From Bisporella sp. PMI_857 (Eukaryota; Ascomycota; Leotiomycetes; Helotiales; Helotiaceae), in assembly GCA_021307315.1 (NCBI GenBank), contig JAJSPD010000075.1, positions 147,804 to 211,803 on the forward strand: 64,000 nucleotides of DNA, written 5' to 3'. The notes below the pieces were generated by a model. It saw only the letters and a list, made by a program, of their open reading frames with translations, ran no database searches and was not told the origin of the DNA. Each line of letters starts with the position of its first letter. Positions within the stretch are counted from its first letter, which is position 1. Shown here in pieces: positions 3,374 to 61,088 of this stretch. Both the position numbers and the translations under genes were made by a program.

Positions 3374-6300
3374 TCAAACAATTCGCGCCACAAACTCCCT
3401 TCTTTGAAACGAAATGTGTCTCCTTTGGATAGAGCCCACCCCGACTCTTTCGTAAGTGCGACGCCCCCCCTCGAGTCTCTGCGTAACAACCAATACATAA
3501 TGAGCTTGCTCGTCCCATTCACGCCCACTCCTAGCCCCTTCGTATACCCTTCCAACGACAATGCACTTCAACATTTGAATATCTGTCATTTCCTCCACGT
3601 CGAACTTTAACCACCCTCTTTTATCGCCTTCACCGCCTTCAGCAAGTATTGCGCAATTTGTGTTCAGATTCCGCGGTTCGATCGTACAATGTAAGAACCC
3701 TCTCACCGGACCTTGTAGCTCAAGTTTGCTAGGGACACATTTGACGGCGTTGCTCCATTCTACGTCCGCGAATGGAATATCCATGTAGCTAATCCCTCCC
3801 TTGTACGCCATCCAGGACCACGATGGCACCCTCCGTTCTGGCAGGTCTAGCGGGGCATTGATTCGCTCCGTCTTGTCTCCAGACCGCTGCCACAGGATGC
3901 TCCGATGCAAGTAACTCTGGAAAATGCCGTAGCACCCTTCAGTCTCAAAAGCGCTTGCAAGCCGGTTCTCTAGTCCAGAGATCGCAACGGGCCTGTCGGT
4001 AAGATTTGAAAGGGCAAGCTTCGAATAAGACTCAAAGAGGTCTCGAAAGAGAGTGATTCTAGCTCGAGTGCCTCTGTTTGAAATGAATTCCGGAAACTGG
4101 GGATCGCCTAGCACATGTGCTCTCTCACTAAAAACAAAAAGTCAGATCTATCTGCTAAATCGTTAAGGTAGTCGGAATCGTCTTTAATAAAATGAGAATG
4201 CGAATATATTAAAGGCTTTGAGGGGGATATTGGTTCCTAGAAGAGGTATAAATCGGGCCCCGTGGACTTACTTTTCCATTTTGATGAGGCTTTCACAGTG
4301 AATCCCCTTGCCACATTCCCAATAGGTCTGCTTTTTAGTGAAATGGATTGTCCGACGTGATAAGGCTCTTTCTTGTAATGCCCAGGCCCGTTTGGTCAAT
4401 TCTCCTTTCTCCACATCGCGATGAAAATTGTCGATACCTTCGCAAATATAGAGTGAAGTATCTGAGGCATATGGGACCTTTACACATTTTTGTATTGGCG
4501 ACCGTAGACTGAGAAATCCTTCGGTGGAATCTTTGGCAGAGCTAGCAGCAATCGTACAATAGGCCGAACCAAAAACCGTTTCCATCTTCTTGGACTCGAT
4601 ATTCCAATCATCTGCGTCTTCTTGGATTATGCAAAGCGAGTCAATCCAAAGGAACCGTTCACCTAGTCCTCGAGTAACTGTGATAGCATCTTGAAATGTC
4701 TTGGGTAGTTTATCGAAGTCGATGCTTTGACGCAATGCGGCGATATTGCGACGATAAGTGCAAAATTTCTGGCTCTCTTCAAGCTTGCCCCAGCAATGAG
4801 ACAAGGCAATGTACTTTCCTCGTTCACCTTCCGTGGTACAATAAAGACGCAGTGAATCCGGGTTCTCGTAATCTCCTATATCAAGGACTCTGGTGGGTAG
4901 TAGACTATCGAATCTGGGGTGACAATGATGATCTTTGTCACAGACTCGAAGCCATTCACGAAGTAACTTGAAATGGACCGGACTCCCTGCTTCGGGTAAT
5001 ATCGGAAATCCGACTTGGATGTTATCGTTACCGTCATCGCCATCAGAAGCTCCTATCCGTAAAATATAAAGTAAGTTATCTTGTAGTAAAACAATTTCCT
5101 CTTCTCTTACTTATTTACATACCTGAGCCTGTGCATATTCTAAGGACAGGGAGTTCATTACCCTCCCTTATCAACATCGAGCCTGTTCTCCCGAGTTTAA
5201 ACTCTTTGTTATAGTTTGGGCTAGACTTCTCTTTGTCTAAGCATATCCGGAGCATTCCGCAGAGACCACAAGAATCTGCAGTTTTTCCCAATTGAGACGG
5301 CGTGACGTTACGGCTGAAATATCGAGACGATATATTAGTGCAATCCCCACACAATTGCGAAAGGGCTAGTTGTTGAGGTGGTGTATCTGATGGGAGATTA
5401 TGGAAAAATTCCCTAGCAAAACCATTGTTTATGCGATAGAGCCATTTATTGTCGAGCTATGTTCTGTTTAGTATAATACTAATCATAAAAAAGCCATGCT
5501 TTACGCAGGCAAGCTCTACTTACCGCCTACACCAGCAAACAAAACAATATCAGCAATCCGCACACTTGCTTTACCCCAGCCAAGTCTACTTACTGCCTAT
5601 ACCAGCATACAAAATAACATCAGCAATCCGCACACTTACTTTACCCCAGCCAGGTATACTTACTTTCTATACCATCAAACAAAACAGCATCAGCCATTTA
5701 CACTCTTGCTTCACTCGTACCAGGTCTACTCACATACTACATCAGCAAACACAAAATAATATCAGCCATCTGCCACTTGATTTACCCATGCCAGGTCTAC
5801 TCACCTCCTACACCAACAAACACAAAACAGCGTCAGCCATTTATACCTTTACTTTATACCAAGTCTACTCACACGCTACACCAGCAAACACAAAATAGCG
5901 TCAGCTATCTGCACTCTTTTTTTACCCACGCCAAGTCTACTCACATGCTACACCAGCAAAACACAAAATAGTGTCAGCTATTTACACTTTTACTTTATTT
6001 ATGCCAGGTTTGCTCACATCCTACACCAGCAAACAAGAAATAGTATTAGCCATTTGCACCCTTACTTCACTTACGCCAAGTTTACTCACCTTCTATACCA
6101 GTAAATACAAAACAACATTAGCCATTTGCACTTTTGCTTCACCCACACCAAGTCTACTCACGTTCTGTACCAGCAAACACGAAATAGCGTTAGCCATCTA
6201 TACTATTACTTCACTTACGTCAAATTTACTTACATCCTACACCAGCAAATACAAAATAATATCAGCTATCTACACCCTTGTTTTACTTACGCTAGGTCTA

Positions 6301-9300
6301 CTTACATGCTATACCAACAAACACGAAATAGCGTTAGCTATTTGCACTTTTCTTTTACTCACGCTAGGTTTACTTACCTCCTATACCAATAAACACAAAG
6401 CAGCATTAGCCCTCTGCACCCTTGCTTCACCCACGCCAGATCTACTCACAATCTATACCAGCAAACACAAAACTGCATTAGCCATTTGCACCCTCGCTTT
6501 TTTTAAGCCAGGTCTACTTACACGCTACACCAGCAAACACGAAACAGCATCAGCTGTTTGCTTTACCCACGCTAGATCTACTCACCAACTACACCAGCAA
6601 ACAAAACAACGTCAGCCATCTACACTCTTGCTTCATCCACACCAGGTCCACTCACATCCTACACCAGCAAACACAAAACAGCGTCAGCCATCTGCACCTT
6701 TGCTTTACCCACACCAGGTCTACTTACGCGCTATACCAGTAAATACAAAACAGCATCAGCTATCTGCACCTTTTTTCTATCCACACTCGATCTACTCACA
6801 CGCTACACCAATAAACACAAAACAACATTAGCCATCTGCACCCTTTTTTTATCCACGCCAGGTCTACTCACGCGCTATATTAATAAACACAAAACAACAT
6901 TAGCTATCTACACCTTTACTTTACCCACGCTAAGTCTACTTACTGTCTATACCAGCAAACACAAAATGGCGTTAGCTATTTATACTTTTATTTCATTTAT
7001 ACCAAGTCTACTTACTTCCTATACCAGCGAACACAAAACAATGTCAGCTATCCACACTTTTCTTTTATCCACACCAGGTTTACTCACATCCTATACCAGC
7101 AAACACAAAACAATATTAGCCATCTGCACCTTTACTTTAACTATACTAAATTTACTTACAAACTATACCAGCAAATATAAAACAGCATTAGCTATCTGCA
7201 CTCTTGCTTTACCCACGCCAAGTTTACTTACCCACTATACCAGCAAACACGAAATAGCGTCAGTATCTGCGCCCTTGTTTACTCACGCCAAGTCTACTCA
7301 CGTCCTAACCAGAAACACAAAATAACGTCAGCCATCTATACTTTTGCTTCGCTTACGCCAGGTCTACTTACCTCCTATACCAGCAAACACGAAATAGCGT
7401 CAGCTATCTATACTTTTGCTTCGCTTACGCCAAGTCTACTTACATACTATACCAGCAAACACGAAATAACATTAGCTATCTGCACTTTTGCTTTACCCAC
7501 GCTAGATCTACTCACAGGCTATACCAGCAAATACGGCATAATGTTAGCTATCTACACTTTTACTTTACCTACATCAAATCTACTCACGCCCTACACCAGC
7601 AAACACAAAACAATGTCAGCCATTTACACTTTTCCTTCACTCACACCAGGTTTACTCACGCTCTACACCAGCAAATACAAAATAGCGTCAGCCATCTATA
7701 CTTTTCCTTTACCCACGCCAGGTCTACTCACGCCCTATACCAGTAAACACAAAATAGCGTTAGCCATCTGCACCCTTTTTTTACCCACGCCAGGTCTACT
7801 CACATCCTATACCAGCAAACACGAAACAATATTAGTTACCTCCACTTTTGCTTTACTTATACTCGGTTTACTTACAAACTATACCAGCAAATATAAGACA
7901 ATGTCAGCTATCTGCACTTTTACTTTATCCACTCCAGGTCTACTTACAGGCTATACCAGCAAATACAAAACAGCGTTAGCTATCTGCACTCTTACTTTAC
8001 TCACGCCAGGTCTACTTACGTCCTACACCAGCAAACACGAAATAACGTCAACTATCTGCACCTTTACTTTACCTACGCCAAGTTTACTTACCCACTATAC
8101 CAGCAAACACGAGACAACATCAGTTATCTGCACGCTTGCTTTACCCACGCTAAATCTACTTACATCCTACACCAGCAAACATAAAATAGCATTAGCAATC
8201 TCTACTTCTCTTTTACTCACGCCAGGTCTACTTACAGGCTATACCAGCAAACACAAAACAACATCAGCTATCTGCACTCTTCCTTTACCCACGCTAGGTC
8301 TACTCACGTCCTATAACAGCAAACACGAAAAAATATTAGCCATCTGCACCTTTCCTTCACTTACACTAGCTCTACTTACACGCTACACCGGCAAACACGA
8401 AATAACGTCAGCTATCTGCACTTTTCTTTTATCCACACTAGATCTACTCACCTCCTACACCAGTAAAGACAAAATAGCATCAGCCATTTACACTTTTGCT
8501 TCACCCACGCCAGGTCTACTCACAGGCTACACCAGCAAACACGAAATAACGTCAGCCATCTGCACTTTTGCTTTTTCACCCTCGCCAAGTTCACTCACCT
8601 CCTATACCAGCAAACGCGAAACAGCGTCAGCCATTTGCACGCTTGCTTTACCCACGCTAGGTCTACTTACCTCCTATACCGGGAAACAAATCAGCATCAG
8701 CTATATACACCTTTGCTTTACCCATACTAGGTCTACTTACCTCCTTTACCAGCAAATACAAAACAACATCAGCCATTTACACTCTTGCTTCACCCACGCT
8801 AGGTCTACTTACAGGCTATACCAGCAAACATAAAACAGCATTAGCCACCTGCACTTTTCCTTCACTCACACCAGGTTTACTCACGCTCTACACCAGCAAA
8901 TACAAAATAGCGTCAGCCATTTATACTTTTCCTTTACCCACGCCAGGTCTACTTACTTCCTATATCAGCAAACACAAAACAGCGTCAACTATTTGCACCT
9001 TTATTTCACCCACGTCAGATCTACTTACCTCCTATACCAGCAAATATAAAACAGCATCAGCTATCTACACTTTTGCTTTACTTACGCCAAGTTTACTTAC
9101 AGGCTATACCAGCAAACACAAAACAACATCAGCTATCTGCACTCTTCTTTTACTTACACCAGGTCTACTTACATACTACACCAACAAACACGAAATAGCG
9201 TCAGCCATTTACACCTTTCCTTCGCCTACGTCAAGTTTACTTACATACTACACCAGCAAACACAAAACAACGTTAGCCATCTGCACCCCTTTTTCACTTA

Positions 9301-10012
9301 CTCCAAGGCTACTTACATGCTACACCAGCAAACACAAAACAACGTTAATTATCTGCACTTTTCTTTTACTCACGCCAGGTCTGCATACTAACTACACCAG
9401 CAAACACGAAACAGCGTCAGCTATCTGCACTTTTGCTTTACTTACGCTAGGTCTACTTACGCGCTATACCAGCAAACACGAAACAGCGTCAGCCGTTTGC
9501 TTTACCCACGCTAGGTCTACTCACCAACTACACCAGCAAACACAAAACAATGTCAGCCATCTACACCCTTGCTTCACCCACGCCAGGTCTACTCACATCC
9601 TACACCAGCAAACACAAAACAGCGTCAGCCGTCTGCACCTTTGCTTTACCCACGCCGGGTCTACTTACTTCCTATTCCAGCAAACAAGATATATTAACAT
9701 TCGTCACCTTTACTCTTTTATAACCCGCCTTTACTTACTCTCTATAACCAGAACCAAGACTGCATTAGCTACAAACTATAATCAAAGTTCTCTAATATAA
9801 CTTGCCTCAAAAAATTCGGAGTTACTCATAGGTAGCTCGTCGGCGGGTGGCTCGTCGGCGGGAGGCTTGTCGGCGGGAGACTCGTCAGCGGGAGACTCGC
9901 CGGCGGGAGGCTTGTTGGCGGGAGGCTCGTTGTCGGGAGGCTCGTCGGCGGGAGGCTGAGCCGGATGTCTCCAATGAAATAGCCGCCCTGTCACACGTTT
10001 AACCTTCTTCAT
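3374..10012 (-). CDS. HET-domain protein with about 60 predicted one-codon exons
   Basis: Predicted minus-strand gene. Exon 1 is 9806-10012 (69 codons, ATG at 10012). Sixty 3-nt exons follow between 9741 and 5524, then exons 5123-5456, 4272-5052 and 3374-4127. The coding total is 2256 nt, giving 751 residues with every junction in frame. Residues 20-59 are eight PPADE-type pentapeptides. Residues 70-129 come one per microexon and are strongly charged. Next are a CGDC/CGLC cysteine pair, LLREWLRVC, and the HET domain from about residue 321 (YIALSHCWG, TFQDAI, LWIDSLCIIQ, RAWALQERALSRR, HF, YWEC). HET proteins trigger heterokaryon-incompatibility cell death in fungi. The last three exons are ordinary, with introns 5053-5122 and 4128-4271. 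Splicing of the array is inferred from sequence; the HET part is certain. Alternative: transcription or translation starts below the array and exon 1 belongs to something else. Confidence 0.8.
5457..5523 (-). other. Last intron of the array, 67 nt, diverged 3' half
   Basis: It starts GTAAGTAGAG like the other units but has its own 3' half, with TACTAAAC as branch point and ACATAG as acceptor, joining the exon that begins at 5456 in phase 0. A stop (TAG) lies in frame directly upstream of that exon, so the exon needs this splice. This unit may be the original intron from which the 5' part of the family spread. Confidence 0.7.
9742..9805 (-). other. First intron of the array, probable GC-AG intron
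   Basis: Exon 1 ends TTT TTT GAG and is followed by GCAAGT at 9805, a good GC-type donor. The segment has CTAAT 24 bases before its end and finishes GGTTATAG at 9742. It is 64 nt and phase 0, like all later units, but its sequence is diverged from them. The first microexon AGA (9739-9741) follows, then GTAAGTAAAGG. Confidence 0.65.
9836..9955 (-). repeat. 15-bp coding repeat encoding PPADE-type pentapeptides
   Basis: Eight in-frame pentapeptides occupy residues 20-59 of the HET gene's first exon: PPADE, PPDNE, PPANK, PPAGE, SPADE, SPADK, PPADE and PPADE. The plus strand shows the repeat as variants of GCGGGAGGCTCGTCG. The segment is proline-rich, acidic and likely disordered. Confidence 0.85.
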
Positions 10013-10899: not shown

Positions 10900-11955
10900 T
10901 TAATACTTTGTAGCCCCTCCACTATTTTCTAAACAAGCGTCTAATCGTCGTGGCATACTCGCGTTCAATTTAAGAAGAAAATTACCGTCAATTTGAGGCC
11001 ATAATCTTTTCAATGCAAACTCCATATCCTCAATATTCCTGATCTTGTGCCGATCCTTAGAGATAAGTCTTTTGATATAGGCCCACAAATTCTCAATTGG
11101 AGAAAGATCTGGAGACTGTGGTGGCCAAGAAAGCTTTGGTATTTTAAGGTCTTTCCAAAACTTCTGAACAAGCTTTGCAGTATGCCACGGAGCATTATCT
11201 TCTTGAACAACAACGTTTTTGCCATATTTCCTTTTCATTCTTTTATAGAAAGGTACAAAGTATTGACGACAAATCTCTAAATACCGGTGTTGATTCATAC
11301 GGCCTCCTTTTGGAATAATGACTAAAGGGCCCATTTCGCTTCCACAAAAACACGACCAAACGCCGACTGTCGTACGCCCAGATTTGAAAGTAGGTTGAAA
11401 GTTTTTATCAAGGTATTCTTCTCCAGGACCTCTTGTAACGTAAACGACCGTTCCGTCTTCGCCAACAACAAAAGTAACTTCATCTGACCAAATCACTTTA
11501 TTCCAGTCTCGTTTGCTCTTTTTTTCATTCTTGCAGAACCGTATTCTCTTTTGTTTATTTTCTTTTCGAAGGTAAAGCTTTCTGCGGGGCTTTCGCTTTG
11601 ATTTTCCGTGTTTCTTGAGTATTTTTCGAACTGTAGTAGTACACAGTTTGTGTCCACTCTTGGTTGGCGTAGCGAGCGATTTAAGAGTGTCTTTTGGATG
11701 ATTCGTAGCATGTCGTATAAGAACTCGTTCCCCTCGAATAGATACCTTTAAAGTAACAGGTCGACGAGAAAGTGTTTCGAATCCTGTACGAGGATTTTGA
11801 GCTCTTCGGTCGACAAATGAGCTGATAGTAGAGTGAGAGCGTTCAAAACGAGCTGCAATCGAGGTAATCGACTCTCCTCCACAATAACGGCCCCATATTT
11901 CAGCTCTTTGCTCTTTCGTAAGCTCTGTTCGCTGTGTAACTCGAGTTCGGCCCAT
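10900..11955 (-). CDS. Tc1-like DD34E transposase
   Basis: A 351-residue transposase that would cut and join the element at TA sites in nuclear DNA. An N-terminal helix-turn-helix pair covers about residues 15-100 (ELTKEQRAEIWGRYCGGESI, then SIAARFERSHSTISSFV). The catalytic domain shows WSDEVTF, EDNAPWHTA and SPDLSPIENLW. The second aspartate and the glutamate are separated by 34 residues, the DD34E spacing of Tc1 elements. Length is typical for the family and there is no internal stop or frameshift. The ATG at 11955 is the first in frame and gives MGRTRVTQRTELTKEQ, a normal start. It is the only gene of the element. Confidence 0.93.
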   Translation of the reverse strand: MGRTRVTQRTELTKEQRAEIWGRYCGGESITSIAARFERSHSTISSFVDRRAQNPRTGFETLSRRPVTLKVSIRGERVLIRHATNHPKDTLKSLATPTKSGHKLCTTTVRKILKKHGKSKRKPRRKLYLRKENKQKRIRFCKNEKKSKRDWNKVIWSDEVTFVVGEDGTVVYVTRGPGEEYLDKNFQPTFKSGRTTVGVWSCFCGSEMGPLVIIPKGGRMNQHRYLEICRQYFVPFYKRMKRKYGKNVVVQEDNAPWHTAKLVQKFWKDLKIPKLSWPPQSPDLSPIENLWAYIKRLISKDRHKIRNIEDMEFALKRLWPQIDGNFLLKLNASMPRRLDACLENSGGATKY

Positions 11956-20532: not shown

Positions 20533-22552
20533 CTAGCTCCCACCCTCCATTCTAGGCGATCTTTTCTGTGGCGATATAGACCGCAATCTGTGCTTCAGCT
20601 TGCCCACAGTTTGATACAGCCGTCTTCGCATAGTTTTAATCTCTGGCTGATTAAGAACAGCTACTCCAAGATGCGAGCGAGCTGCGCGTCTTGCCTCTTC
20701 TAACTTATCTACACAGGAGTTAGAAAATGCCAGAATAACTATTTGGCAAAGAATACGTACATTGCAAGAGATCCTCCAACTTCTTGTGGATCTGCTGGGT
20801 TGGCATCGGACTCTCCGCTAACCTAGCAGCCAGATATGCCTTAGGCTTAGAATAACCAAACCCTTGCTGAGGACCTGGAGAGTCGAAGATGCGAAGTTGA
20901 ATCACCCAACCCCTAATGGTATCAAATCTCTCCAAGAGGTCAATGACAACTCTCGAGTGCTCTGCAGATCTTCCGTGTTTTTTTTTGAGCTGGGAACCCC
21001 GCCATTCGAATTCATCAAATTGGCCCACTTGTCGGTCTTCCGGCACACCTATCTCCAGGGCGTAACAGTAGATTTCTGCCAACCCTATTTGGCCCTGTCT
21101 GTAGTCTAAGATTTCGTTGAGGCGATAAAGCTCGTCAAACTCTAAACGAGTTCCTTCGATCAACTTGTAGAACCCTGGATGGCAGTCGGTGTTGCAACCC
21201 CCATTATCAGGGCCCGGATGCGAGTTCATATATCTAGTCGCTTTGACTTTGACGATATTATGGAGAGCTCCGGGGCTCTTTGACATTATAGAGCTAGCAA
21301 GGGGACTAGCGGGTGGGTAAATATTCTTCATTGGTGGAGCTTCTGGCAGGCTTTCCCACTTCTCTTTGTAATTCAAGAGAGGAAGTCCGGTCCTCTTCCC
21401 CCATGCTTTGGCCCAAAGGTCGTCTTGAGCGGCAAATGAAAAATTGTGTATTCCCCATAGTGAGCCATATCGTGCTTTGCATTCGTAGATGATCTGTTGT
21501 GTCAAAGCGGCCATCGAAAGAGAAATATCTTCTCCCTCGTCATTTTCTTGTACTTTGATGAGTTTTCCCTCCATGTCTCCAGTAGGTTGTCCCTTATCGT
21601 TTAGTTCCTCGAAGTAAACTTTTTTCCCGCTGTAGAAGCCCTCTGTTCTATCAGAGGCCGTAATGATGGAATTGAGAAGACACGTTGCAAAGACACTTCC
21701 TCCCGCTTGTCGCCCAACGGTCTGGCTTAACGGCCAGGAAAGACTCTCATCCTCGGACCCCGCTGCTGTGAGAAAGGAGTGATTGAACGCAGGTTTAACG
21801 TCGAAGTGTTTGTTCAAATTTGGCTTCATAATCCAGCCGCCTGAGTAGCACGATGTCAAAATCATAGTCGTTTGAACCTCTTTTTGCAACACAGAAGCGA
21901 GCCTCGCCTGAGTTAATTTCAAGGAGCCGCCTTCATCACAACCAATAAAAATTCCCGAAGTTTCCTCTTCTCCATGCCCAAAGATAAGTACCAGAACTGG
22001 CTGCTTGGTTCGAGAAGCTTCTTTGATCTCAGATTTAAGAGTTGCAAGAAATCTCTCAAGAAGATCTTTTGGCTTGAAAACACGAAAGCCGGCCGTCATT
22101 TCATCTTTGGGAAGCATTTCCTCGTTCATGACAACTCTTCGATCCCCTGCGATTCCATTTGCAGGTCCGTGGAGATAACGCTCGTGTTTGCGGATAAGAT
22201 CACTGGGCGAGCAGCTTGAAAGCCATAGTTGGTTGGGTAGTTCAGCTACGCTTGTGTCAGTACCAATGGAAGGGAATATAAAGAGAAGGGAGAAAATGTT
22301 GAACTTGCACCTACATCGAGAGCCTAACATCTGATAAAATAAGAAAAAGTCCGAAAAGAACCATCCATCTTCCTGTGGAGCCGCCTTGGAAGCCGGTATT
22401 CCGCAGACCGCAACAATTCTTGTATCTTTCTGGACATCTGGAGGACATCTAGCAGCGAACTCGACACCTTCAAGTCCTCCGTAAGTACCTGTCTGCCTGC
22501 CGTATCCTCCAAAGGATGCAGGTTGCAGCATCGGGGTTGAGCTGGATGCCAT
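20533..22552 (-). CDS. Caspase-like (C14-type) fungal protein
   Basis: Three exons are 22315-22552, 20761-22245 and 20533-20708, giving 632 residues in frame from MASSSTPML. Intron 1 (22246-22314, 69 nt) has GTAGGT, TACTGAC and GCGTAG; intron 2 (20709-20760) has GTACGT, TTCTAAC and GTGTAG. The caspase/metacaspase fold is indicated by the histidine motif VLVLIFGHGEEE and the cysteine motif MILTSCYSGGW, preceded by DGWFFSDF. The last exon encodes a basic tail (RRRLYQTVGKLKHRLRSI). C14-type proteases act in regulated death or protein quality control; the substrate here is unknown. Intron 1 is a multiple of three without an in-frame stop, so retention would insert 23 residues, several hydrophobic. 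An upstream in-frame ATG at 22675 exists but leads through unremarkable sequence. Proximity to HET genes fits an incompatibility or cell-death locus, which is inference. Confidence 0.85.
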
Positions 22553-22958
22553 TTTACTGGCGGTTGTAGGTACGTTTTCAAAGTGTTGTGAATGGGCAAG
22601 GTCGAAGAAGAAAGGTAGAATAGATTTGGGGGGGAGGGGAGGATCTCTTAAATAGGAGCATAAATTAAGGTTCACAGTTTAGTATGATTCACAGTTATGA
22701 CTCATAAGACGTGAGCCATTAAAGAATAATTCTGGACAAATAATGATGTAATTGTTCCGAGGAGATCTCCACATATACTAGCTACCCGTCCTACTAATAC
22801 AAAGCCTAGTGGTCAGCTAAAGAATAAGCTCTCCCCTTTTTAAACTAGCGTAGAAATTTAGGGTTAATAGCACAAGTTAAGAGCGAGGTAAAATCCCAAC
22901 AGCTACTCGCAAAGGGGAAGTTAGTTTTGCAGGTGACTGTAAGTTGGAGTACTGTAAT
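22553..22958. other. 5' flank of the caspase-like gene
   Basis: Likely promoter region of the minus-strand gene. No other coding potential or recognisable element is seen before the solo LTR at 22959. Confidence 0.35.
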
Positions 22959-25747: not shown

Positions 25748-27654
25748 TTGGTAGAAATAAATCACCTGATTTCTTCGGGACAGTATACAAACAGCCAACT
25801 CCCGGAAATCCTACAGAAATACCTAGATGTTTTTCTAGCTGACAACGCTAAAAAGCTAGCTCCGCACAGAGACATTGATTTAGCAATAGAACTACAGCCA
25901 GGAAAAGAACCTCCGTATGGGCCAATTTACCCTTTGTCACAAACTGAACTGGCGGCCCTTCGAGAATTTCTGGAAGAAAATCTAGCTAAAGGATTTATCA
26001 GAGAATCAAAAAGCCCTGCAGGAGCGCCAATTCTATTTGCGCCTAAAAAGGATGGAGGCCTTCGCCTTTGTGTTGACTATAGAGGCCTGAATGCGGTTAC
26101 TATCAAAAATCGATATCCTTTGCCACTGATTTCTGAGATTATGGACAGAGTATCCGGAGCTCAATATTTCAGCAAAATCGATTTAAAAGACGCATATTAC
26201 CGGCTACGGATCAAAGAAGGGGATGAATGGAAAACAGCTTTCCGAACTCGTTACGGGCACTTCGAATTCCTAGTAGTGCCGATGGGCCTTACTAATGCAC
26301 CTGCTACGTTCCAGGCATATATTAACAAAGCTTTTCGAGGCCTGGTTGATGATTTTTGCATTGTTTATTTGGACGACATACTCATTTTCTCTAAAACAAA
26401 AAAAGAACATAACTGTCACGGTCCTCAATATCGCACCAGACGCCCATTGGTTCGCTTACCAGCTCGCCTATTGTGGTCACGTGGTAATGGTCTTTATGTT
26501 AGGGATGCCACAGCAACAGCTACACCTTTCCTCCTTAGTTTAGTATTCTCGTATTGAAGCACCTACACTACGCCCCATCAGGCTCATAGGATCGTGATCG
26601 TGACAATAACCAGCACTTACAACAAATATGCGAAAAACTTCGACAAGCGGAGCTTTATGCAAAACTTTCAAAGTGTCAGTTCTATCAAAAAGAATTAGAG
26701 TTTCTTGGCTTTATTATCAGCTCTACCGGCATTAGTACGGACCCACGCCGAGTACAAACTATCAAAGAATGGGAAAATTACCCTCCGAAAACCTACAGAG
26801 ATTTACAAGTTCTCCTTGGAATTTGCAATTTCTACCGACGTTTTAGCAAGAATTATTCATCTATCGCAAAACCTTTGACTGCTTTACTAAAAGGTAGTCA
26901 AAATGGCCGCAAACCCGGCAACCTCAGTACAGTTTGGGGTGCTTCTGAAGCAAAGGCGTTTCGAAGCCTTCTCGGAGCTTTCCAGACAGCACCTTTACTT
27001 CGACACTACGACCCTGTACTTCCTATTCGACTAGAAACAGATGCGTCTAATGTCGCTATAGGCGGTGTTCTTTTTCAGCTACAAAAAGATTCCGGCCAAT
27101 GGCACCCAATTGCTTTTTTCTCCAAGCAATTCAAAGGAGCAGAGCTTCATTACGGCACTCCTGATAAAGAGCTTATGGCTATAATTGAGTGCTTCAAGCA
27201 TTGGCGCCATTACTTAGAAGGAAGTCAGCATACTATCGAAGTTTGGTCAGATCATCAGAACCTGCAAAGCTTCATGAAACAGCCAAAGATCAATGGCAGA
27301 CAAGCTAGATGGCTTATTTATCTTATTCCTTATGATTTTATTATACGACATCGGCCAGGGCTACTTAATCCCGCAGATGGGCCGTCGAGGCGGCCTGACT
27401 ACAAAGCTACAGATCAGAATGAGCCTGTTCAAAAACATTTGCTAACGAACAGACTAGTAACATCAGAACCAAACCTGCGGAATGCAGAAAAGCTATATGA
27501 TTTGGCTAGAACAAGTTTCTGCGGAAAAACAGAAGAGCCATGTGACTTGGCAAAAGTACAGCTGTGTGACGCAGCTAGGTCTAAGCTCGATAGAGATAGA
27601 TCAGAATTGAAGCCATGTGATTTGGCTAGAGTACAGCTGTGTGACGCAGTGTAA
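25748..27654 (+). pseudogene. Ty3 reverse transcriptase and RNase H, split by a solo LTR
   Basis: 25748-26413 carries reverse transcriptase motifs [46 protein letters not shown] and the catalytic YLDDIL. A 192-bp solo LTR plus one target duplication interrupts codons after KKEHN. The frame resumes at 26611 with the thumb and RNase H (LETDASNVAIGGVLF, FSKQFKGAELHYGTPDKELM, DHQNLQSF) and ends at 27654 just inside the inverted LTR. Removing the LTR and one ATAAC copy restores the frame, so the reading frame was open when the LTR element landed. Near 27490-27650 an 18-codon unit with CDLAKVQLCDA repeats three times. Confidence 0.85.
26414..26605 (+). repeat. Solo LTR (family 4) inside the reverse transcriptase, TSD ATAAC
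   Basis: It starts TGTCACGGTCCTC and ends ATCGTGATCGTGACA, with ataac at 26409-26413 and 26606-26610. It is the clearest full copy of this family; a degenerate one lies at 13540-13686. Confidence 0.93.
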
Positions 27655-31275: not shown

Positions 31276-31602
31276 CGTCACACACATGCTACGAGAGAAC
31301 CTGAATTGCATCACCAATATTCCTTCTGATTGTTATTGTGTATTTCCATGTTCTATCAATTCAAGTCAGAGCTCGCTATATTTTACTCAGCCACTATTCT
31401 CAGCCACGATTCTCAGGCCTGGTCATGTGTGTGGCGTGCCTACACTACCACCCCGGTGAGGCTGAGCACTCACATACATAAGTCTTGACAGACTATGGAA
31501 TCCCGCAGGTAGTTACAAATATTGCAAAGGCCGTCTGGCTCCCATCAGCATTATTGCATTATTGGCCCTTGGGAAACTCTACCTTCTCAACATCTGCCCG
31601 AA

Positions 31603-33384
31603 ATGCGTCTGATCAATGCCAGGACGCTAAGGCTGGACGAGTTCTACGACAATGCGATTCCACGATATGCCATTCTTTCACATGCTTGGGGAGACGGCGA
31701 GGTCTCCTTCCAGGAGTGGCAGGATCCCACCAAAGCATCGAAAAAGAGCGGGTACGCCAAAATCAAGGGGGCGTGTCGTCAAGCGCTCAAAGATGGTCTG
31801 GAATACCTCTGGGTCGATACCAACTGCATTGATAAAACCAGCTCAGCCGAGTTGACCGAAGCTATCAACTCTATGTTCGCCTGGTATCGCGATGCCGTGT
31901 TCTGCTACGCTTACTTGTCTGATGTTCCAACGCTGAATAAAGCGGATGCCGATCTACTGAATTCCTTTCGCAAAAGCCGCTGGTTTACTCGTGGGTGGAC
32001 CCTCCAGGAGCTCTTGGCTCCTCGCCATGTTACCTTTTACTCCAGCGACTGGGGTAGAATTGGAACAAAGTCAGGATCGCTTGCCAAAGAAATCAGTACA
32101 ATCACTGGAATCGATGTTTCCTATCTCACTAATCAGTTACCATTGGCTTCAGCGAGTATAGCGAAAAAGATGCATTGGCTGTCCCGGAGGACCACGACTA
32201 GACTTGAGGACATGGCATATTGCATGCTTGGAGTTTTTGATATTAATATGCCTTTACTGTATGGAGAAGGTTCCAAAGCTTTCATTCGACTCCAAGAAGA
32301 AATAATCAAGATTTCCAACGACCATACCATATTTTGCTGGACTTGGACTTCTTCGGTGCCGCCGGACTGGGTCAGCTTGCTTGCTCCATCGCCAGAAACC
32401 TTCAAGTTTTCAGGAGATTTCGTGAAATCCAGTGTGGGAAGGTCCGTTTCCACGTACTCCATGACGAATTCGGGCCTCTCTATTCGTTTGCCTATCATTC
32501 AGAGTTGGTCTTACTTTTTTGTAGTCGTCAATGTACATTGTCCAGGTCAGCCTTCTGAGACAAAAGCTTGCATCCCGATCAGTGGTCTTCTCGACAATAA
32601 CAGTTCAGAAAACAACAAATTGATGGAGAGAGTGCCAATCCCCCAAGGGGTCTCTTTCCTATACTCCGATTGGGCGATAATGGAACCTCAAATCTTTGTG
32701 CTATCCAGGGCTGACCCGTTGCGAAAGAGGAGAACGTCTGAGGATATTTCAACAAAATATGGCTTACTTTTCATCCTAGGAAATACAAAAAGACTACTAG
32801 ATAAGAGGATTTCATCTGTGTCACAATATGACTCGGGTGATGGAGTTTTTCTCATTGAAAAGACCAAAGGACTTATCGGCATCGAGACGTTCCCTGCCGG
32901 CCTATTTGACCTGGAACACAGTATATTTATGTTCAATCAGCGCATAACAGGATCAATCTATGGAGGACTAATGCGCTTGGGCAACCTTCAAGCCTCTGGA
33001 TGCGTAATCTTCTTCGCAATTAATATGCTTCCTAACAAACCATTAAAATGGTTTTGCCGGATACTTCCTCCGACTTCCTGGGGTACCAATAACAACCAAC
33101 GCAAAGCTCTCTTAAAAGAACTGGCAACGTCAGAAGCTCTCAGAAGCGAAGATCAACGAGAAGACTGCTCCAAAGAGCTCGACATATGTCTTAAGATTGG
33201 TCATAAGATCGAGCATACAAGCATTGAAATCATCCGGCCGGTATATTTTTGTTTTGGGGTTGGGGATTTCAAGTGGCGGCTAAACGCCATGCACTATGAC
33301 ACCGTCGATGAAGAGTATTCGGGTAGCGATGCCGACTCGAACGTCCCAGCAATTGCACACCGACCAGAAAAGAGGTACAAGTAA
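31603..33384 (+). CDS. HET-domain protein (HET-E/HET-D-type N-terminus)
   Basis: Single exon, 593 residues from MRLINARTLRL. The HET domain occupies roughly the first 130 residues: YAILSHAWGDGEVSFQEW, LEYLWVDTNCIDK, AINSMFAWYRDA, RGWTLQELLAPRHVTFY. The block MAYCMLGVFDINMPLLYGEG with an amphipathic helix after it is the usual continuation in HET-E/HET-D relatives. The C-terminal 300 residues have no recognised NACHT, WD40 or ankyrin module, so this is a stand-alone HET protein. Such proteins mediate non-self recognition and induce cell death on heterokaryon formation. An in-frame ATG at 31522 lies upstream but the added 27 residues look non-coding; MRLI is the family's usual start. Confidence 0.85.
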   Translation: MRLINARTLRLDEFYDNAIPRYAILSHAWGDGEVSFQEWQDPTKASKKSGYAKIKGACRQALKDGLEYLWVDTNCIDKTSSAELTEAINSMFAWYRDAVFCYAYLSDVPTLNKADADLLNSFRKSRWFTRGWTLQELLAPRHVTFYSSDWGRIGTKSGSLAKEISTITGIDVSYLTNQLPLASASIAKKMHWLSRRTTTRLEDMAYCMLGVFDINMPLLYGEGSKAFIRLQEEIIKISNDHTIFCWTWTSSVPPDWVSLLAPSPETFKFSGDFVKSSVGRSVSTYSMTNSGLSIRLPIIQSWSYFFVVVNVHCPGQPSETKACIPISGLLDNNSSENNKLMERVPIPQGVSFLYSDWAIMEPQIFVLSRADPLRKRRTSEDISTKYGLLFILGNTKRLLDKRISSVSQYDSGDGVFLIEKTKGLIGIETFPAGLFDLEHSIFMFNQRITGSIYGGLMRLGNLQASGCVIFFAINMLPNKPLKWFCRILPPTSWGTNNNQRKALLKELATSEALRSEDQREDCSKELDICLKIGHKIEHTSIEIIRPVYFCFGVGDFKWRLNAMHYDTVDEEYSGSDADSNVPAIAHRPEKRYK

Positions 33385-43140: not shown

Positions 43141-43585
43141 CAGCACATGCACCAGCTCGCTGACACCAGTTACCATTCTGGCTTCTTAATTGTATCATAC
43201 TCTTTGTGCTAACCCTATACAATATCTCAGCCAATTTAGAGCGAGTAAATAATTTTATAGTCGCTTGCAAAACCGGCCTCCCTTCCACACGGGCTTGGAA
43301 ATTTTGAATTTCTCTGTTAAAAACAGTGAGGAAACTCGCTAGATCGCGACAAGGGTATGGCTGGAGCGAGTCGGCAACCCTGTTGTGGCAAAATGTACGA
43401 ACCTCATGCGCTGTCTCAGTCATTCATGTACTACAGTCGTGGTGGCTGTGTCAGAAGTCGTGCACTTAGATCGCCAGCAACTTAGGAAACATCAACCGGA
43501 CGATAATGTTTCGCTCGTCATACTACCCATTACCCATCAGATCTATTCTACACGCACAAGTTCAAATTCCTGCGTACGATACATC

Positions 43586-46500
43586 ATGTCTCAGTACCAT
43601 TATCCCCCACTTTTGCCGGGGCCTGACAGTATTCGCTTGCTTCACCTAATGCCACATGAAGACGAGACAGCCCCAATACAATGCCAGCTCTTCAACTACT
43701 CTCTGGACAAATCAGACAAATGGACTCATCTGTACGGGGCTTTATCCTACGTATGGGGCGGTTCGGACAAGCCTCGGTCTATCTTCATAGGCAAGCATGG
43801 CTTGCCAGTCACAGCAAACCTTCACGCGGCCCTATCACGTCTTCGAGATCACTCGTTTGAACGAATCATATGGGCAGATGCTGTTTGCATTGATCAGGAT
43901 AACTTCGAGGAGAGGGGCTATCAGGTCCAGCTTATGGCGAAGATCTATAGTAAAGCAAACCATGTAATTGTTTGGCTGGGTGAGGCGGCAGACGATAGCG
44001 ACCGAGTGGTCGAAGAAATACTCGTCACCGCAGGCAAGCAGTCTACGTATTCTCCTACCTATGAAACGCTCGAGCGATCGATTCTCGCGCTACTTCGACG
44101 ACCATGGTTTCGACGCATCTGGGTAAGGGGGCTGTTGGTCGAAAATATCCGTACAAAGTTACTAAAAGTCGATCCAGGTACTTCAGGAAGTTGCCGCTGC
44201 CCGACATGTTCGGATCATGTGTGGTTCTATAGAGATTGACGGTTACGCCTTCTGCTCAGGTTTGGAGTCATTAAAGCATTTCTACAAAGCCCGTCCAGAT
44301 TTGCAGAATCTGATCAGTTCCGTAACCTACCTGATAAAAGGAGCAATCTTCCGGCCTGCTTACAAAACAAGTTCTTCAGACATGGTTTCTCTGAATCGAC
44401 GCCCTCTAGGTGAGCTGATAGATATGTTCCATGCCCACCAGGCTACTGAGCGCTGCGACAAGGTGTATGCATTGCTCGGTATGAGCTCTGACAATCCCGG
44501 TGCAGCTGGCTTGACGCCTGACTATACGGTTCCATGGAAGCAGATTTTCCAGCGTCTTGTTAAATTCCTTCTCTGCCAGCAGGCATCTGTAGACACTTGG
44601 GGCGATAGAGAGATCGCAGTAATCAAGAGCAAGGGCTGTATTCTTGGCCAAGTGTCCTCGGTAAAACAGGATACTTCTTCGGGTGGCACACAAAACTTGG
44701 TTATCACATCAAAGGATACATTTAAGCACTTTGGATACGAAGGGGAGTGGCGCGCGAACTGGACTGTCCAGATCTCGGCGAAACCTATCCAACATGGTGA
44801 CCTTGTTTGCCTTCTACAAGGAACATCAAAGCCTGCCATTATTAGAATATGGAAGGATCACTTTGATGTTATTATGATTGCGGTTACTCCTCCAGACCAC
44901 ATAGGAATCCCGAGTGGAAGTATTCGATGGCCAGAGCTCCTACAAACGATAACGACCTTCCCCCGTGAATTTCTACTTGTCTGGAACTGGGAAGAGTCTT
45001 CGAGGAAGCCGCAAGATCTGGGAGAACTCGAAACCTTGATAAAGATAGACAGTCGAGTGCCAGAGCATTTAAAGATAGAACTGAAAATTCTATTGGACAA
45101 AGCGACCAGATTATGGAATGCGGCGAGGATATTAGAAGATTCGGGAGAATATAAAAGGGCAGAAGAGAGGCTCCGAGGAGTAATAGAGGGTTGCGAGAGC
45201 GCATTTGGAAAAGGGCATCTGCTCACACTGACAAGTATGGACAAGCTCGGGCTGATATACAAGAAATCCCAGCAATGGAAAGAGGCAGAGGACATGTTTG
45301 TACAAGTAATACAGACGAGAAAGCAGGTGCAAGGGGCAGATCATCCAGCCACGCTAAGCAGCATGGCCAACCTAGCGTCAGTCTACAGAGATCAAGGGCA
45401 TGTGAAAGACGAGGAGAAGCTAAAGATGATGATACATTTACTCAAGCGAAGAAGTGGCCATGATCGTATCACAAAAGAATGGGTTGTCCGAATTGCAGGG
45501 TCATTTGATAAGGAGATAATGATGGTTTTGCTCGAGCGGAGAGGGGACAACATCCAGGTTACAGAAGAAGTGGTCAGTGCTGCGGCAAGGAATGAAGAGA
45601 ATGGAGGAGAAGTAATGAAACTTCTACTCGAGCAGAGAGGGGACGAGGTTCAGATCACAGAAGGGGTTGTCAAGGCAGCGGTAGGGAATTCGAGGAGCGG
45701 AAAAGAAGTAATGAAACTTCTATTTAAGCAAAGAGGGGATGAGGTCCAAATAACAGAGGGGGTAGTCAAGGTAGCAGCAAGGAATTCGATAAGTGGAAGA
45801 GAAGTAATGAAACTTCTACTCGAGCGAAGTAAGGATGAGGTCCAGATTACGGAAGGAGCAGTAGTTCAGATTGCAGGATTATTTGATAAAGAGATGATGA
45901 TGGTTCTACTTGAGCGAATAGGGGATAATGTCCAGATTACAGAAGAAGTGGTCAGTGCTGCGGCAAGGAATGAGGAGAATGGAAAAGAAGTAATGAAACT
46001 TCTACTCGAGCGAAATAAGGACGAGGTCCAGATTACAGAAGGAGCGGTGGTTCAGATTGCAGGATTATTTGATAAAGAGATAATGATAGTTTTACTTGAG
46101 CGAAGAGAGGATAATATCCAGATTACAGGAGAAGTGGTCAGTGCTGCGGCAAGGAATGAGAAAAATGGAGGAGAAGTAATGAAACTTTTACTCGAGCAAA
46201 AAGGGGACGAGGTTCAGATCACAGAAAAGGTTGTCAAGGCAGCGGTAGGGAATTCGAGGAGTGGAAAAGAAGTAATGAAACTTCTATTTAAGCAAAGAGG
46301 GGATGAGGTCCAAATCACAGAGGGGGTAGTCAAGGTAGCAGCAAGGAATTCGATGAACGGAAAAGAAGTGATAAAACTTTTACTTAGGCGAAGAGGGGAC
46401 GAGGTCCAGATCACAGAAGGGGTAGTCCAGGCAGCGGCATGGAATTCGATAAGTGGAAGAGAAGTGATGAAACTTTTACTCAAGCGAAGTAAGGATGAGG

Positions 46501-47306
46501 TCCAAATTACAGAAGGTGGAGTGGTTCAGATTACAAGATTATTCGATAAAGAAGTAATGATGGCTCTACTCGAGCGAAGAGGCGATGAGGTCCAGATTAC
46601 AGAAGAGGCAGTGGCTCAGATCGCAGGATTATTTGATAAAGAAGTGATGATGGCTCTGCTTGAGCGAAGAGGGGACAAGGTCCAGATTACAGAAGGGATA
46701 GTGGTTCAGATTGCAGGGTCATTTGATAAAGAAGTGATGATGGTTCTACTTGAACAAAAAGGGGTCAATATCCAAGTTACAGAAGGGGTAGTTAAGGCAG
46801 TGGCAGGGAATTTCGTGAGTGGGAAAGAGGTAATGAAACTTCTACTTAAACGAAGAGGGAACGAGGTTCAGATCACAGAAGGGGTAGTCAAAGCAGCGGC
46901 AAGGAATTCGGTAAGTGGAAGAGAAGTAATGAAACTTCTACTCGAGCGAAGTAAAAACGAGGTCCAGATTACAGAAAGAGCAGTGGTTCAGATTGCAGGG
47001 TCATTTGATAAAGAGATAATGATAATTTTACTCGAGCGAAGAGGGGACAACATCCAGGTTACAGAAGAAGTGGTCAGTGCTGCGGCAAGGAATGAAGAGA
47101 ATGGAGGAGAAGTAATGAAACTTCTACTCGGGCGGGGAGGGGACGAGATCCAGATCACAGAAGGGGTAGTCAGGGCAGCGTCGTGGAATTCGAGGAGCGG
47201 AAAAGAAGTGATGAAAATTCTCCTGGAGCGAAGTGGGAACAACGAACAGATCACAGAAGATATGGACTCCCGACTTTCGAAGCGACCGAGACTTTCCCTC
47301 ATTTAG
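43586..47306 (+). CDS. HET-TPR protein with long C-terminal helical repeats
   Basis: Two exons, 43586-44122 and 44178-47306, give 1221 residues. The 55-nt intron (GTAAGG, TTACTAAAAG, ATCCAG) splits IW and VLQEVAAARHV in frame. The start is MSQYHYPPLLPG. The HET domain covers about residues 50-210 (YGALSYVWGG, LRDHSFERIIWADAVCIDQD, LMAKIYSKANHVIVWLGEA, RRPWFRRIWV). After the family's usual middle region (RCDKVYALLGMSSDNP), two or more tetratricopeptide repeats of kinesin-light-chain type lie near residues 480-610 (ILEDSGEYKRAEERLRGVIE, HPATLSSMANLASVYRDQG). The last 600 residues are about 23 repeats of roughly 25-33 residues, with the core EVMKLLLERRGDEVQITEGV. The arrangement resembles fungal NLR-like incompatibility proteins but lacks a nucleotide-binding domain. 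Confidence 0.88.
45470..47240 (+). repeat. Coding repeat array in the HET-TPR gene
   Basis: Two alternating unit types encode KEVMKLLLERRGDEVQITEG-type and FDKEVMMVLLERRGDNVQIT-type helical pairs, joined by VVKAAARNSRSG or VVQIAGL linkers. Copies are very similar in DNA; for example 45561-45640 recurs almost exactly near 47061-47140. I believe this is the repeat listed in Pfam as DUF7104, but I could not check. Confidence 0.8.
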
Positions 47307-56979: not shown

Positions 56980-59900
56980 TCACCCCCCCCTTCCGAAAAA
57001 GCTTGCCCTCAAGCTTTCTGATGCTTCCGAATTGTCATCTAGCTCGTCGTAGTCGTCTTTGCCTTGTTCCCACTCCTTGATCCATTCCAGTAGGTTCGCC
57101 GGCGGCCCTCGGAGTGTAGGGTTGCGTAAGTGGAAGTCTCTAACCTTGTGTGGGCTGTACTTGAAATTGGAGGCTGGATACCATTCGGGGTCGATATCGT
57201 ATCCTACCCACTTTGCTTTGTACTGCAGCTGTCGATTACGAACTCGAACAGCCAGAATTTCTTCGACTTCCCACTTTTCGTCCTCCGTAACCTGTATAGG
57301 TGGTTCTGGCACAGGCAGCTGGCCTGGTAACGGATCCATTGCAGCTTTACGAAGCAGCTGTGGTGCGAACACTGGGTGTATTCGTAAATTGTCAGGCAGC
57401 TGCAGCCGGTAAGAGTTTCCTTCTCGAGCCAGAATTTTGTAAGGTCCAGCGTTCTGAATATCGAGCTTTTTGCTAGGCCTGTCGGTTTTCCAATTCCTTG
57501 TCGACACGTATACCCAGTCGTCTACGCCAAAATCGGTGTCTCTGCGGTGTTTATTTACAGACGCTTCCATTCGTTCCTGAGCTTTACGGATCAAGCTACC
57601 GGCCGTATTCCAAGTAGAATGCATCCTTTTGGCGAAAGCAGTTGCTTCTTCCACGCTTAGCTTTTCTCTGGCTGTTACAGGCTCTTTCGGCCTGTTCCAG
57701 TCATAGGACGTGGTTGGCGCGTACCCATTAAGCACTTCGAACGGGGATAGCATACCTAGGCTTTCGTGAGGTAAAGTCAGCTGTGCGTAGTCCATTAAAG
57801 CGACCAGGCTCGACCAGTTGTCTTGATAATAGTTTATAAAAGGCCGAAGCCTCTGATCAAGGTACTGGTTCATGATTTCTGTCTGCTCGTCAGTTTGAGG
57901 GTGGAACGCTGTCGAAAGCTTGAGTTTCACTCCGAGAATTCGACAAAGCTCGTGCCAGAACGTTGAAATAAACTGAGGACCTCTGTCTGATACAATAGTA
58001 GTTGGTGCTTCTCGTGACCTGTAGACGTGATCAATAAACAACTGTGCCATGTTTTTTGCAGTTGTCGTTTTGTAACATGGAATCGTTATGGACTGTTTAC
58101 AGAACCTGTCTATCATTACCAGTACCGAATCATACCCGTAACGGTCCGTAAAGTACGATTTGAAGTCCATGGCCATATGTTGCCACGGCCTTTCCGGAAC
58201 CGGCAAAAGTTGTAGCTTGCCTGTAGCTTTGTCTCTGAATACTGTAGCGCGTCTGCACTCTCTACAGTTGTTCATGTATCGCTCTACGTCGGTGCGTAAG
58301 CTTTTCCACTAGTATTGCCTAGCTATTACAGCTACGGTTTTGGTCCGGCCAGGGTGTGCTGCCGACACTTGAGCGTGGGCCTCCTGAATCAGCTCCGTGC
58401 GGAGATTGTCGGTAGGAGGGACTACTAGTCGACTTTGCCACAGCAACAGCCCGTTGCTTACAGTCCAGTTTTGCTCTCCGTTCTCTGCTCGCTGACGATC
58501 TGTTGCTAGTTCTGGAGAGCTGCGATTAGCGGCTACGATTCGGTCTGCGAGTACCTATAAGGATAGAGTTTCTGACAAAGTTGCCGTTTGCGAGCTTGTC
58601 GGCTTTTCTATTGGTGCGAGCGTAAGTTGTGCATTAAGCAGCAGCTTTGCGCGAATACGAGGGTCGACTTGGTCATCCGTAAGGAACTGCTGTGTGCGAT
58701 AGCGCTTTTTGGTGGCCTGTAAATCATTTGTATCCTGATCTTTTCGTGTCAACGCGTCTGCTTTCTCATTCTTGCGGCCAGGCCGATATGTGATTGTAAA
58801 AAAGAATTCAGACAATGCTTCGGCCCACTTAGCCTAGCGACCGTTAAGCTCTTTAAAGGTCATGAAATACTCCAGCGCTTTGTGATCCGTGACTACTTTG
58901 ACTTTGTAGTCCGTTCGTGCTAAATCAGCTTTCCATTGCTCGAAAGAGCGAACTATAGCTAGCATTTCTTTGTCGTGTATCTGGTAGTTAAGCTCTGCAG
59001 GAGTCAGGGTTTTTGAGAAATAGCCTACAGGTTGCCATAGGGCGTTTTCGTCGTCTGTAGCTTTTTGAGACAATACTCCCGCAATCACCCCATCAAAAGC
59101 GTCTGTCTCTAGCAAAACCTCTTTTTGCGGGTCGTAATAGGTCAGTACTGGAGCCGTAACTAGCGCTTGCTTCAGCCGCTCGAACGATGCGTAACACTTA
59201 TCATTGAAGTCGAACGGCACGTCCTTGCCTGTCAAGCGGTTCAACGGGCGGGCAATAACTCCGTAGTCTTTAATGAATCGTCGGTAAAAATTGCAAAAGC
59301 CGAGAAATGACTGTATGCCGCGTACGGACGTAAAGGGCTTCCAGTCATTAACAATTTATACTTTCTCTGGGTTTACTTCAATACCGTCAGTAGTCACAAT
59401 AAACCCTAAGTACTTAGTTCGAGTGACGCTAAATTCAGTTTTCTTGATATCTACTTGTAGTCCAGCTTCACGAAGTCGTAATAGCACTTTACGGACGTGC
59501 TCCGTATGCTCCAGCTCGTTCTCTGAGTATATCAGAATGTCGTCCAAGTACGCTGTACAGAAATCATCCAGGTAATCGAACAACACTTCGTTCATGTAGC
59601 GCTGGTACGTTGCGGGCCCGTTAGTCAGGCCAAAAAGTAGCACTTTGCATTTGTACGTTTCGTAGCGAGTACGAAACGTAGTTAGCTCTTCCGAATCAGA
59701 GTGAATCCGTATTCTGTAGAACGCTTGGCGTATGTCTAGCTTAGTGAATATTTTGGCTTTCGTAAGTCGTGACAAAGTTTCGTCAATAAAAGAGAGAGAG
59801 TATTGATCTTTACGGGTGATACTGTTGAGTTTGCGATAGTCGATACACAGCCGTAAACTTCCGTTAAGCTTTCGCACGAATAGCACTAGCGCTGCAAATA

Positions 59901-60885: not shown

Positions 60886-61088
60886 TGTCACGGCACGTAG
60901 GATTGGAGCAACGGCTCAAAGTAATACGGGTAAGAATCGAGAATAATAGAACTACAGAACTATGGAAGTAGAAAGGGAAGCCTATATACAGGAGTTCGGA
61001 TCACGTGACGTGCTACGCGAGTGTCCCCACGGGTGCCTTACAGGCCGTCAGGCCTTATAGAAGCCGTAGGCGCGCCAGCGCCGTGACA
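60886..61088 (-). repeat. LTR (family 10), 3' LTR of chromovirus B
   Basis: Same 203-bp length and ends as 56777-56979, with scattered differences. It interrupts element A at its 5' side, and the next pol tract belongs to B. Confidence 0.9.

Follow-up and report, generated by a model that had tools for sequence, protein, structure and literature searches.

Arrays of predicted one-codon exons in HET and other genes of the leotiomycete Bisporella sp. PMI_857

How might a gene be expressed whose predicted exons are, sixty times in succession, a single codon long? This question is raised by a gene of the HET type (self/non-self recognition) on a 64,000 nucleotide stretch (the window) of contig JAJSPD010000075.1 of Bisporella sp. 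PMI_857 (Helotiales, Leotiomycetes). Here the original prediction had read, on the minus strand, 60 units with a 3-nt spacer, phase-0 borders and no stop triplet, and each of these points was reproduced: from 9741 to 5524, 60 of 60 units have the form AG-NNN-GT, with a spacer of exactly 3 nt. Recomputing the proposed gene model, in which exon 1 (69 codons from the ATG) is joined to the 60 triplets and three downstream exons (coordinates in Table 1), again gave an open frame of 2256 nt, i.e., 751 residues plus stop, with the frames closing at both array ends, and a recount again found 31 of the 60 codons to be D, E, R or K. A Pfam scan of the first 501 of the 751 residues identified a HET domain (PF06985; E 7.8e-32, 111.1 bits vs a curated cut-off of 22.5) and a weak match to Extensin_1 under its cut-off, and found neither a protein kinase domain nor NACHT-ANK in those 501 residues. 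The interpretation of the locus as a HET gene with 60 in-frame predicted one-codon exons therefore stood, as did the expectation that the splicing route is likely unusual. The claim that donors are GT held for the array units and failed for the donor after exon 1, which is GC (GAG/GCAAGT); among the internal donors one reads GTATGC. Internal introns, 59 in number, measure 61–72 nt; of the flanking ones, the first measures 64 nt and the last 67 nt. We think it likely, on the basis of the sequence, that the 60 units are one-codon exons joined 5'-to-3' into a 60-residue linker preceding the HET domain.

The regularity of the array is in part that of a repeat. The motif YAGNNNGTRAGT matches 57 times in the window, always inside the array (2 matches expected; maximum of 8 over 100 shuffles), and as a tandem repeat the array consists of 58.6 copies of a 72-bp unit (76% match), so that the recurring AG and GT partly reflect repeat structure. 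The window array is no isolated case: a search of the whole assembly (55.6 Mb, 284 contigs; C-numbers are contig labels, C258 being the window contig) identified at least seven further arrays of 3-nt exons, with 6 to 51 units each. The pattern of a donor, 45–75 bases, an acceptor, 3 bases and a second donor occurred 57 times in forward and 109 times in reverse orientation (9 and 9 in a reversed control), and its GTGAGT version 10 and 33 times (9 and 4 in the control). Arrays were traced in 20 stretches chosen from the pattern matches and in the window, within preset bounds and without the use of codon identity, with two exceptions that were judged by eye (one C212b site and the first C269 site). 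This gave at least 8 arrays with 238 triplets, a lower bound: C258 (60), C212a (29), C212b (32), C226 (51), C269 (40), C86 (13), C135 (6) and C262 (7). When the same 258,560 bases were searched for chains of at least 5 exons with exon lengths of 1–12 and 15, length 3 gave 15 chains (219 units), and lengths 1, 2, 4–6, 8–12 and 15 gave no chains. The 4 chains (42 units) obtained with length 7 all fall within the window and C212b arrays, and we attribute them to the repeat structure showing through. No chain arose in 5 shuffled replicates; as the stretches had been picked for pattern matches, these counts are no genome-wide rate.

Six of the eight arrays (C258, C212a, C212b, C269, C135 and C262) are followed immediately by a HET-gene exon, and in all six genes the HET profile exceeds the curated Pfam cut-off. 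C135 and C262 have, upstream of the array, an exon encoding a protein kinase (kinase-HET; the "TOL-like" label of these proteins comes from the names of database matches). The C269 array starts with a two-codon ATG exon and has, by visual reading, one 6-nt unit, and the C135 acceptor reads CAGCAG, making one additional codon possible. The two remaining arrays belong to other kinds of gene. The C226 array comes after a ubiquitin-like-domain gene and spells a charged, coil-like string; three of its introns contain inserted DNA of roughly 265–370 bp (spacings 433, 342 and 447). The public protein P0121 corresponds to this gene (100% identical over the part searched), and its end, EASRADMS, is the read-through of the array's third unit to a TGA, so that the public gene model stops within the array. 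The C86 gene is predicted to run from an ATG through a signal-like exon and 13 one-codon exons, which give NPQGPGAPPPSPN, to a final exon encoding EVES-stop; its frame closes at both array ends, and the array would make up most of a small secreted peptide.

Whether the 3-nt exons are a product of repetition can be judged from the introns. Five of the arrays (C258, C212a, C212b, C226 and C269) are tandem, whereas the introns of C86, C135 and C262 have mean identities of 0.56, 0.53 and 0.50, compared with 0.54, 0.51 and 0.51 after shuffling; despite these unrelated introns the exons are 3 nt, and repeat structure cannot explain them. The triplets also lack stops: there were 0 in 238 against 10.4 expected from shuffles that kept each base in its array and codon position (none of the 20,000 shuffles was stop-free), and with distinct codons counted once per array there were 0 in 87 against 3.35 expected (p 0.015). 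Donors are near the consensus, with GTAAGT or GTGAGT in 217 of the 238 units, and there is a YTRAY branch-like site near the acceptor in 199 of the 207 introns of the five tandem arrays, the other 8 being without one.

In the tandem arrays, triplets and introns differ in how they vary (these transversion and intron-pair comparisons include one spurious first C269 site). Transversions make up 14% of intron variation in the window array, 22 and 25% in C212a and C212b, 4% in C226 and 41% in C269, whose introns are strongly diverged in one part, compared with 44–100% in the codon columns, the second codon column of C212a (zero) excepted. The window's codon columns have 57–70% transversions (ranks 1, 2 and 4 of 72 columns) and those of C226 46–94%; altogether 14 of 15 codon columns rank 1–5 of the 68–77 columns of their arrays, the second column of C212a being at rank 29. 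The contexts of the intron transitions do not point cleanly to repeat-induced point mutation: they are mixed, with G to A after T the most frequent in the window array.

Many of the near-identical introns stand next to different triplets, and yet units are copied together with their triplet, as shown by a duplicated block in the window (GAT-TTG-CGY) and by unit pairs with the closest introns, which share triplets in 13% vs 5.6% of cases in the window and in 52% vs 17% in C226. Each residue also tends to be written with one codon: same-codon counts are 45/58, 27/29, 27/28, 50/51 and 34/39 for C258, C212a, C212b, C226 and C269, which 0, 1, 0, 0 and 0 of 5000 simulations reached (for C226, against 27.9 simulated), and there was no significant excess in the three short arrays (303, 5000 and 2360 of 5000). 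The background of these simulations was 1832 codons from five open-frame pieces at three loci and may contain intron sequence. Divergence is greatest at the initial unit of C258 and of C212a, at the two initial units of C212b and, in C269, at the four initial and roughly the last dozen units, while C226 has no such edge; this divergence at the edges suggests that the tandem arrays grew from inside.

The strongest sign that triplets are translated comes from an array with unrelated introns, in that the C262 peptide is matched in related proteins. The C262 kinase-HET protein had 817 relatives at E 0.001. We used 120 of these for comparison, of which 111 align near the start of the pre-HET part and 107 have sufficient preceding sequence; the following results, for C262 and C135 alike, are among the matches listed. 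The C262 triplets spell NQYAAPP, immediately before LNDVW, and in the relatives the pre-HET part opens with L, one to three residues, and W. The form xxYxxPP abuts the matching leucine in at least 19 relatives (19/107), all with DY and LPP, the closest being NDYALPP in P0041, and is absent there from the other 88. When the residues of NQYAAPP were permuted 1000 times, its fit to these 107 relatives was better than that of 994 permutations on the best ten relatives and of 993 on all of them; it was also better than that of each of 218 windows from the peptides of other arrays. The C135 peptide NEYRFT resembles EEYRFE (P0052) and NEYRNA (P0062). The C135, C262 and C212a peptides all open with N-[EQ]-Y, and [ND][EQ]Y occurs within the preceding 13 residues in 9 of the 107 relatives, compared with 0.17% of other 13-mers. 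Based on the avoidance of stops, the transversion-rich codons, the arrays with unrelated introns and the NQYAAPP match, the array triplets are very probably translated.

With a length of 3 nt, an exon should leave no room for acceptor-side factors and U1 to bind simultaneously, and for this reason we favor stepwise removal of the introns in the 5'-to-3' direction. Intron n would be removed first, which would make codon n the new 3' end of the upstream exon; the next GTRAGT would then be exposed as an ordinary donor, and one codon would be added per cycle, with the strong intronic donors compensating for the absent exonic donor base. For the window gene 61 intron removals would be needed. Because every unit amounts to exactly one codon, the frame is preserved whenever a unit is copied, lost or skipped; a skipped unit would cost exactly one residue, and an array could grow through copied codon-intron units and tolerate errors. 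The linker, situated between the N-terminal region and a death-effector domain, may be fast-evolving and may tune recognition or signaling. The domain that follows it, HET, is a cell-death effector in other fungi (PMC4986451), and a role of the linker in recognition is our guess from the class of gene. As a broader proposal, offered tentatively and as possible while well short of probable, such arrays would write peptides codon by codon: ratchet-spliced, they would serve as editable recognition linkers in which unit copying adds residues without risk to the frame, introns stay alike while codons diversify, and skipping yields very many in-frame variants; they would have arisen or expanded repeatedly within a single genome and not in HET genes alone, one product being a secreted peptide with a mature part made mostly of one-codon exons.

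Other explanations have to be set against this. If the window array were a minisatellite within one long 5' intron, with exon 1 spliced straight to 5456 and the triplets untranslated, the 72-bp tandem structure would be accounted for, as would acceptor and donor signals that recur with the unit and a frame that is kept when all units are skipped. We nevertheless regard this as quite improbable, given the missing stops, the 14 of 15 triplet columns among the top five for transversions where introns change mainly by transitions, the persistence of 3-nt exons between unrelated introns, and a C262 peptide of a form known from relatives. Hardly credible is coding of a 24-residue repeat protein on the plus strand, for which 72 bp would be 24 codons and an antisense stretch of 550 aa is open; we rejected it because the main units of the other four tandem arrays are 68, 70, 71 and 77 bp long, with antisense frames open for at most 107 aa, and because indels break the frame in the window array itself.

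Two further alternatives leave the exons in place. The one-codon exons may mostly be skipped or variably included, giving a large family of in-frame isoforms, as is stated for the nank genes of Tuber, and we consider this somewhat less likely than not. All exons being 3 nt, every subset is in frame; donors and acceptors are near-identical between units, so that skipping should be easy; and alternative splicing of codon-sized microexons is stated in papers citing Iotti et al. 2012. The strong donors (GTRAGT in 217 of 238 units) also fit constitutive inclusion. As to origin, the linker may once have been contiguous and have received introns between one codon and the next; the contrasting history is one in which codon-intron units were copied and then diversified. 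The unrelated introns of C262 and C135, linkers of relatives such as NDYALPP that are annotated within the protein sequence, and the different triplets between many near-identical introns are all in keeping with this; the preference for one codon per residue in the tandem arrays (50 of 51 in C226) and the duplicated GAT-TTG-CGY block with its matching introns point instead to unit copying, and we think insertion unlikely.

Several observations weigh against the joining of the 60 codons into a linker, the reading that we prefer, and inclusion of the window array is a prediction from sequence. As units are copied, the avoidance of stops represents fewer independent events than 238, and two of the C86 introns are more alike (0.70) than any shuffled pair (at most 0.64). 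The C212b array is in frame with its HET exon only if the second of two neighboring AGs is used. The C226 array is without a 3' end and is near a transposase-like open reading frame (ORF); a motif scan of the surrounding 19.8 kb did not find the missing 3' exon. The NEYRFT match is the weaker of the two: its top-10 score is attained by 12 of 1000 permutations and by 10 of 219 windows from other arrays, its overall score by 74 of the permutations and 5 of the windows. Finally, the comparison with relatives that the original prediction had proposed did not support it: the 60-residue window peptide was seen in none of the four relatives found for its region and had no match, hence no contiguous copy, in its own genome, and P0137, tried as an ortholog with a contiguous linker, was rejected as its alignment begins only at the pre-HET part.

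Table 1. Predicted features of the window gene (window positions) and of the C86 gene (contig positions)
Feature	Position	Strand
Exon 1 (69 codons, beginning with ATG), containing 15-bp Pro/Ala/Asp/Glu repeats; phase-0 end	9806..10012	-
First intron, 64 nt, GC-AG	9742..9805	-
Array of 60 predicted one-codon exons and 59 introns; predicted peptide REDLRLHYYPEESPEEEPERDPDWDPFDGSGPYEDWFDETRRRDLRIEHDNKDHREYKAA	5524..9741	-
Codon block GAT-TTG-CGC, first copy of the duplicated multi-unit block (includes a 64-bp unit)	9461..9599	-
Codon block GAT-TTG-CGT, second copy of the duplicated multi-unit block	6522..6658	-
Final array intron, 67 nt	5457..5523	-
Pre-HET exon, beginning LDNKW, phase 0 relative to the array	5123..5456	-
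Exon holding the HET domain	4272..5052	-
HET domain (PF06985) match (C258:152173-152616 in the assembly)	4370..4813	-
Final coding exon, through the stop	3374..4127	-
Small secreted-type gene of C86	C86:5,561-6,632	

The surroundings of the arrays gave some additional observations. The HET repertoire of the Bisporella genome is very large, with 729 first-look PF06985 candidates, and all 150 that were scored exceed the cut-off. The window itself contains a second HET-type gene (43385–47306, plus strand), in which a HET match (C258:191536–191928) is followed by TPR and 14 DUF7104 repeats of 31 residues; these form a conventional coding repeat array (Tandem Repeats Finder, 45531–47259). A further ORF (31522–33384, plus strand), which we take to be HET-like, contains the stretch YAILSHAWGDGEVSFQEW. 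Just upstream of the array gene lies a transposase-like ORF of 351 aa (10900–11955, minus strand), presumably Tc1/mariner-like; an ORF of 651 aa (20720–22675, minus strand) with a GHGEE...SCYSGG stretch is presumably a caspase-like protease, and ORFs at 25748–27654 (plus strand) and 56980–63353 (minus strand) are, we assume, pieces of retrotransposon polyproteins. As to C226, the ORFs 3' of its array are presumably pogo/Tigger-like, and a protein query for its missing 3' exon gave matches at three places on other contigs. A relative of the C226 gene, P0125 of Xylaria sp. FL1042, has the C-terminus CETQTVSKANY; this reads like an exon followed by an unspliced donor GTAAGTAAA, and our guess is that the Xylaria relative may also carry an array. 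On either side of the C86 gene lies an ORF similar to 2OG-Fe(II) oxygenases; one of the two matches exceeds the curated cut-off and the other falls short of it. We speculate that such enzymes might hydroxylate the proline-rich mature peptide of the C86 gene.

If the arrays are spliced in, they would be an extreme test of the spliceosome on exons too short for exon recognition, in that 61 removals among near-identical sites would have to proceed without loss of register. They would also offer a route by which protein length and sequence evolve residue by residue with no risk to the frame. Automatic annotation can miss such genes, as the public C226 model illustrates, and self/non-self genes of other fungi may be similarly truncated in databases.

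The original prediction had known of no gene with tens of one-codon exons in a row; this has to be corrected, since "tens of codon-sized microexons" or "3-bp long microexons" are reported for Tuber melanosporum in papers that cite Iotti et al. 2012 (PMC3689799, PMC4986451, PMC10197012). As these are reported for its nank genes, the kind of gene structure seen in Bisporella is already known. Among the papers listed by our searches, which mostly did not cover subscription journals, none describes arrays of one-codon exons for HET genes or for Bisporella. One paper regards functional microexons as not previously described in filamentous fungi (PMC11121469), and another gives two 3-nt exons for duplicated lipS genes of a Dactylellina species (PMC5639578). 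As far as these searches show, what is new is the class of gene, the class of fungus, the occurrence of tandem introns in several families, arrays of unique introns for which there is a peptide match, and a peptide of secreted type.

The Tuber nank genes are the nearest counterpart, being ascomycete self/non-self recognition genes with tens of 3-bp exons. In Bisporella, exons of 3 bp are predicted for 60 of 60 window units and for 238 units in 8 arrays, and tens per gene for the arrays of 60, 29, 32, 51 and 40, the others having 13, 6 and 7. The two systems differ in their hosts, which in Bisporella, a leotiomycete, are HET and kinase-HET genes, a gene with a ubiquitin-like domain and a secreted-type peptide rather than NACHT-ANK genes, and in their introns, as five Bisporella arrays are tandem, each with an intron sequence of its own, and three have unrelated introns. 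Because the domain found in the window gene is HET and NACHT-ANK was not found, we do not class it as nank. With recursive splicing in Drosophila (PMC8605326) the arrays would share stepwise removal, an acceptor beside a donor and, as proposed here, a regenerated donor; the Drosophila ratchet points are AG/GT and retain nothing, whereas in 60 of 60 window units three bases stand between AG and GT. Stwintrons (PMC8469720, PMC5639578) resemble them as tightly packed fungal U2-type introns with consecutive splicing and repeated intron families, but in a stwintron one intron splits a splice element of another, while the Bisporella introns each have their own donor and acceptor and are separated by a codon. 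The micro-exon genes of schistosomes (PMC10526429) likewise have many very short, mostly in-frame exons and variable proteins; their exons are 6–81 bp (3–81 in the abstract), mostly 15 bp, and their introns 0.1 to 5 kb, compared with 3-nt exons and introns of about 65–75 nt (61–72 in the window) here. Finally, repeats of fungal NLRs such as the WD40 repeats of HET-E also occur in recognition genes and combine concerted repetition with positions under diversifying selection (PMC4986451); there the repeat is coding, whereas in Bisporella the repeat is the intron, with three bases per unit predicted to code.

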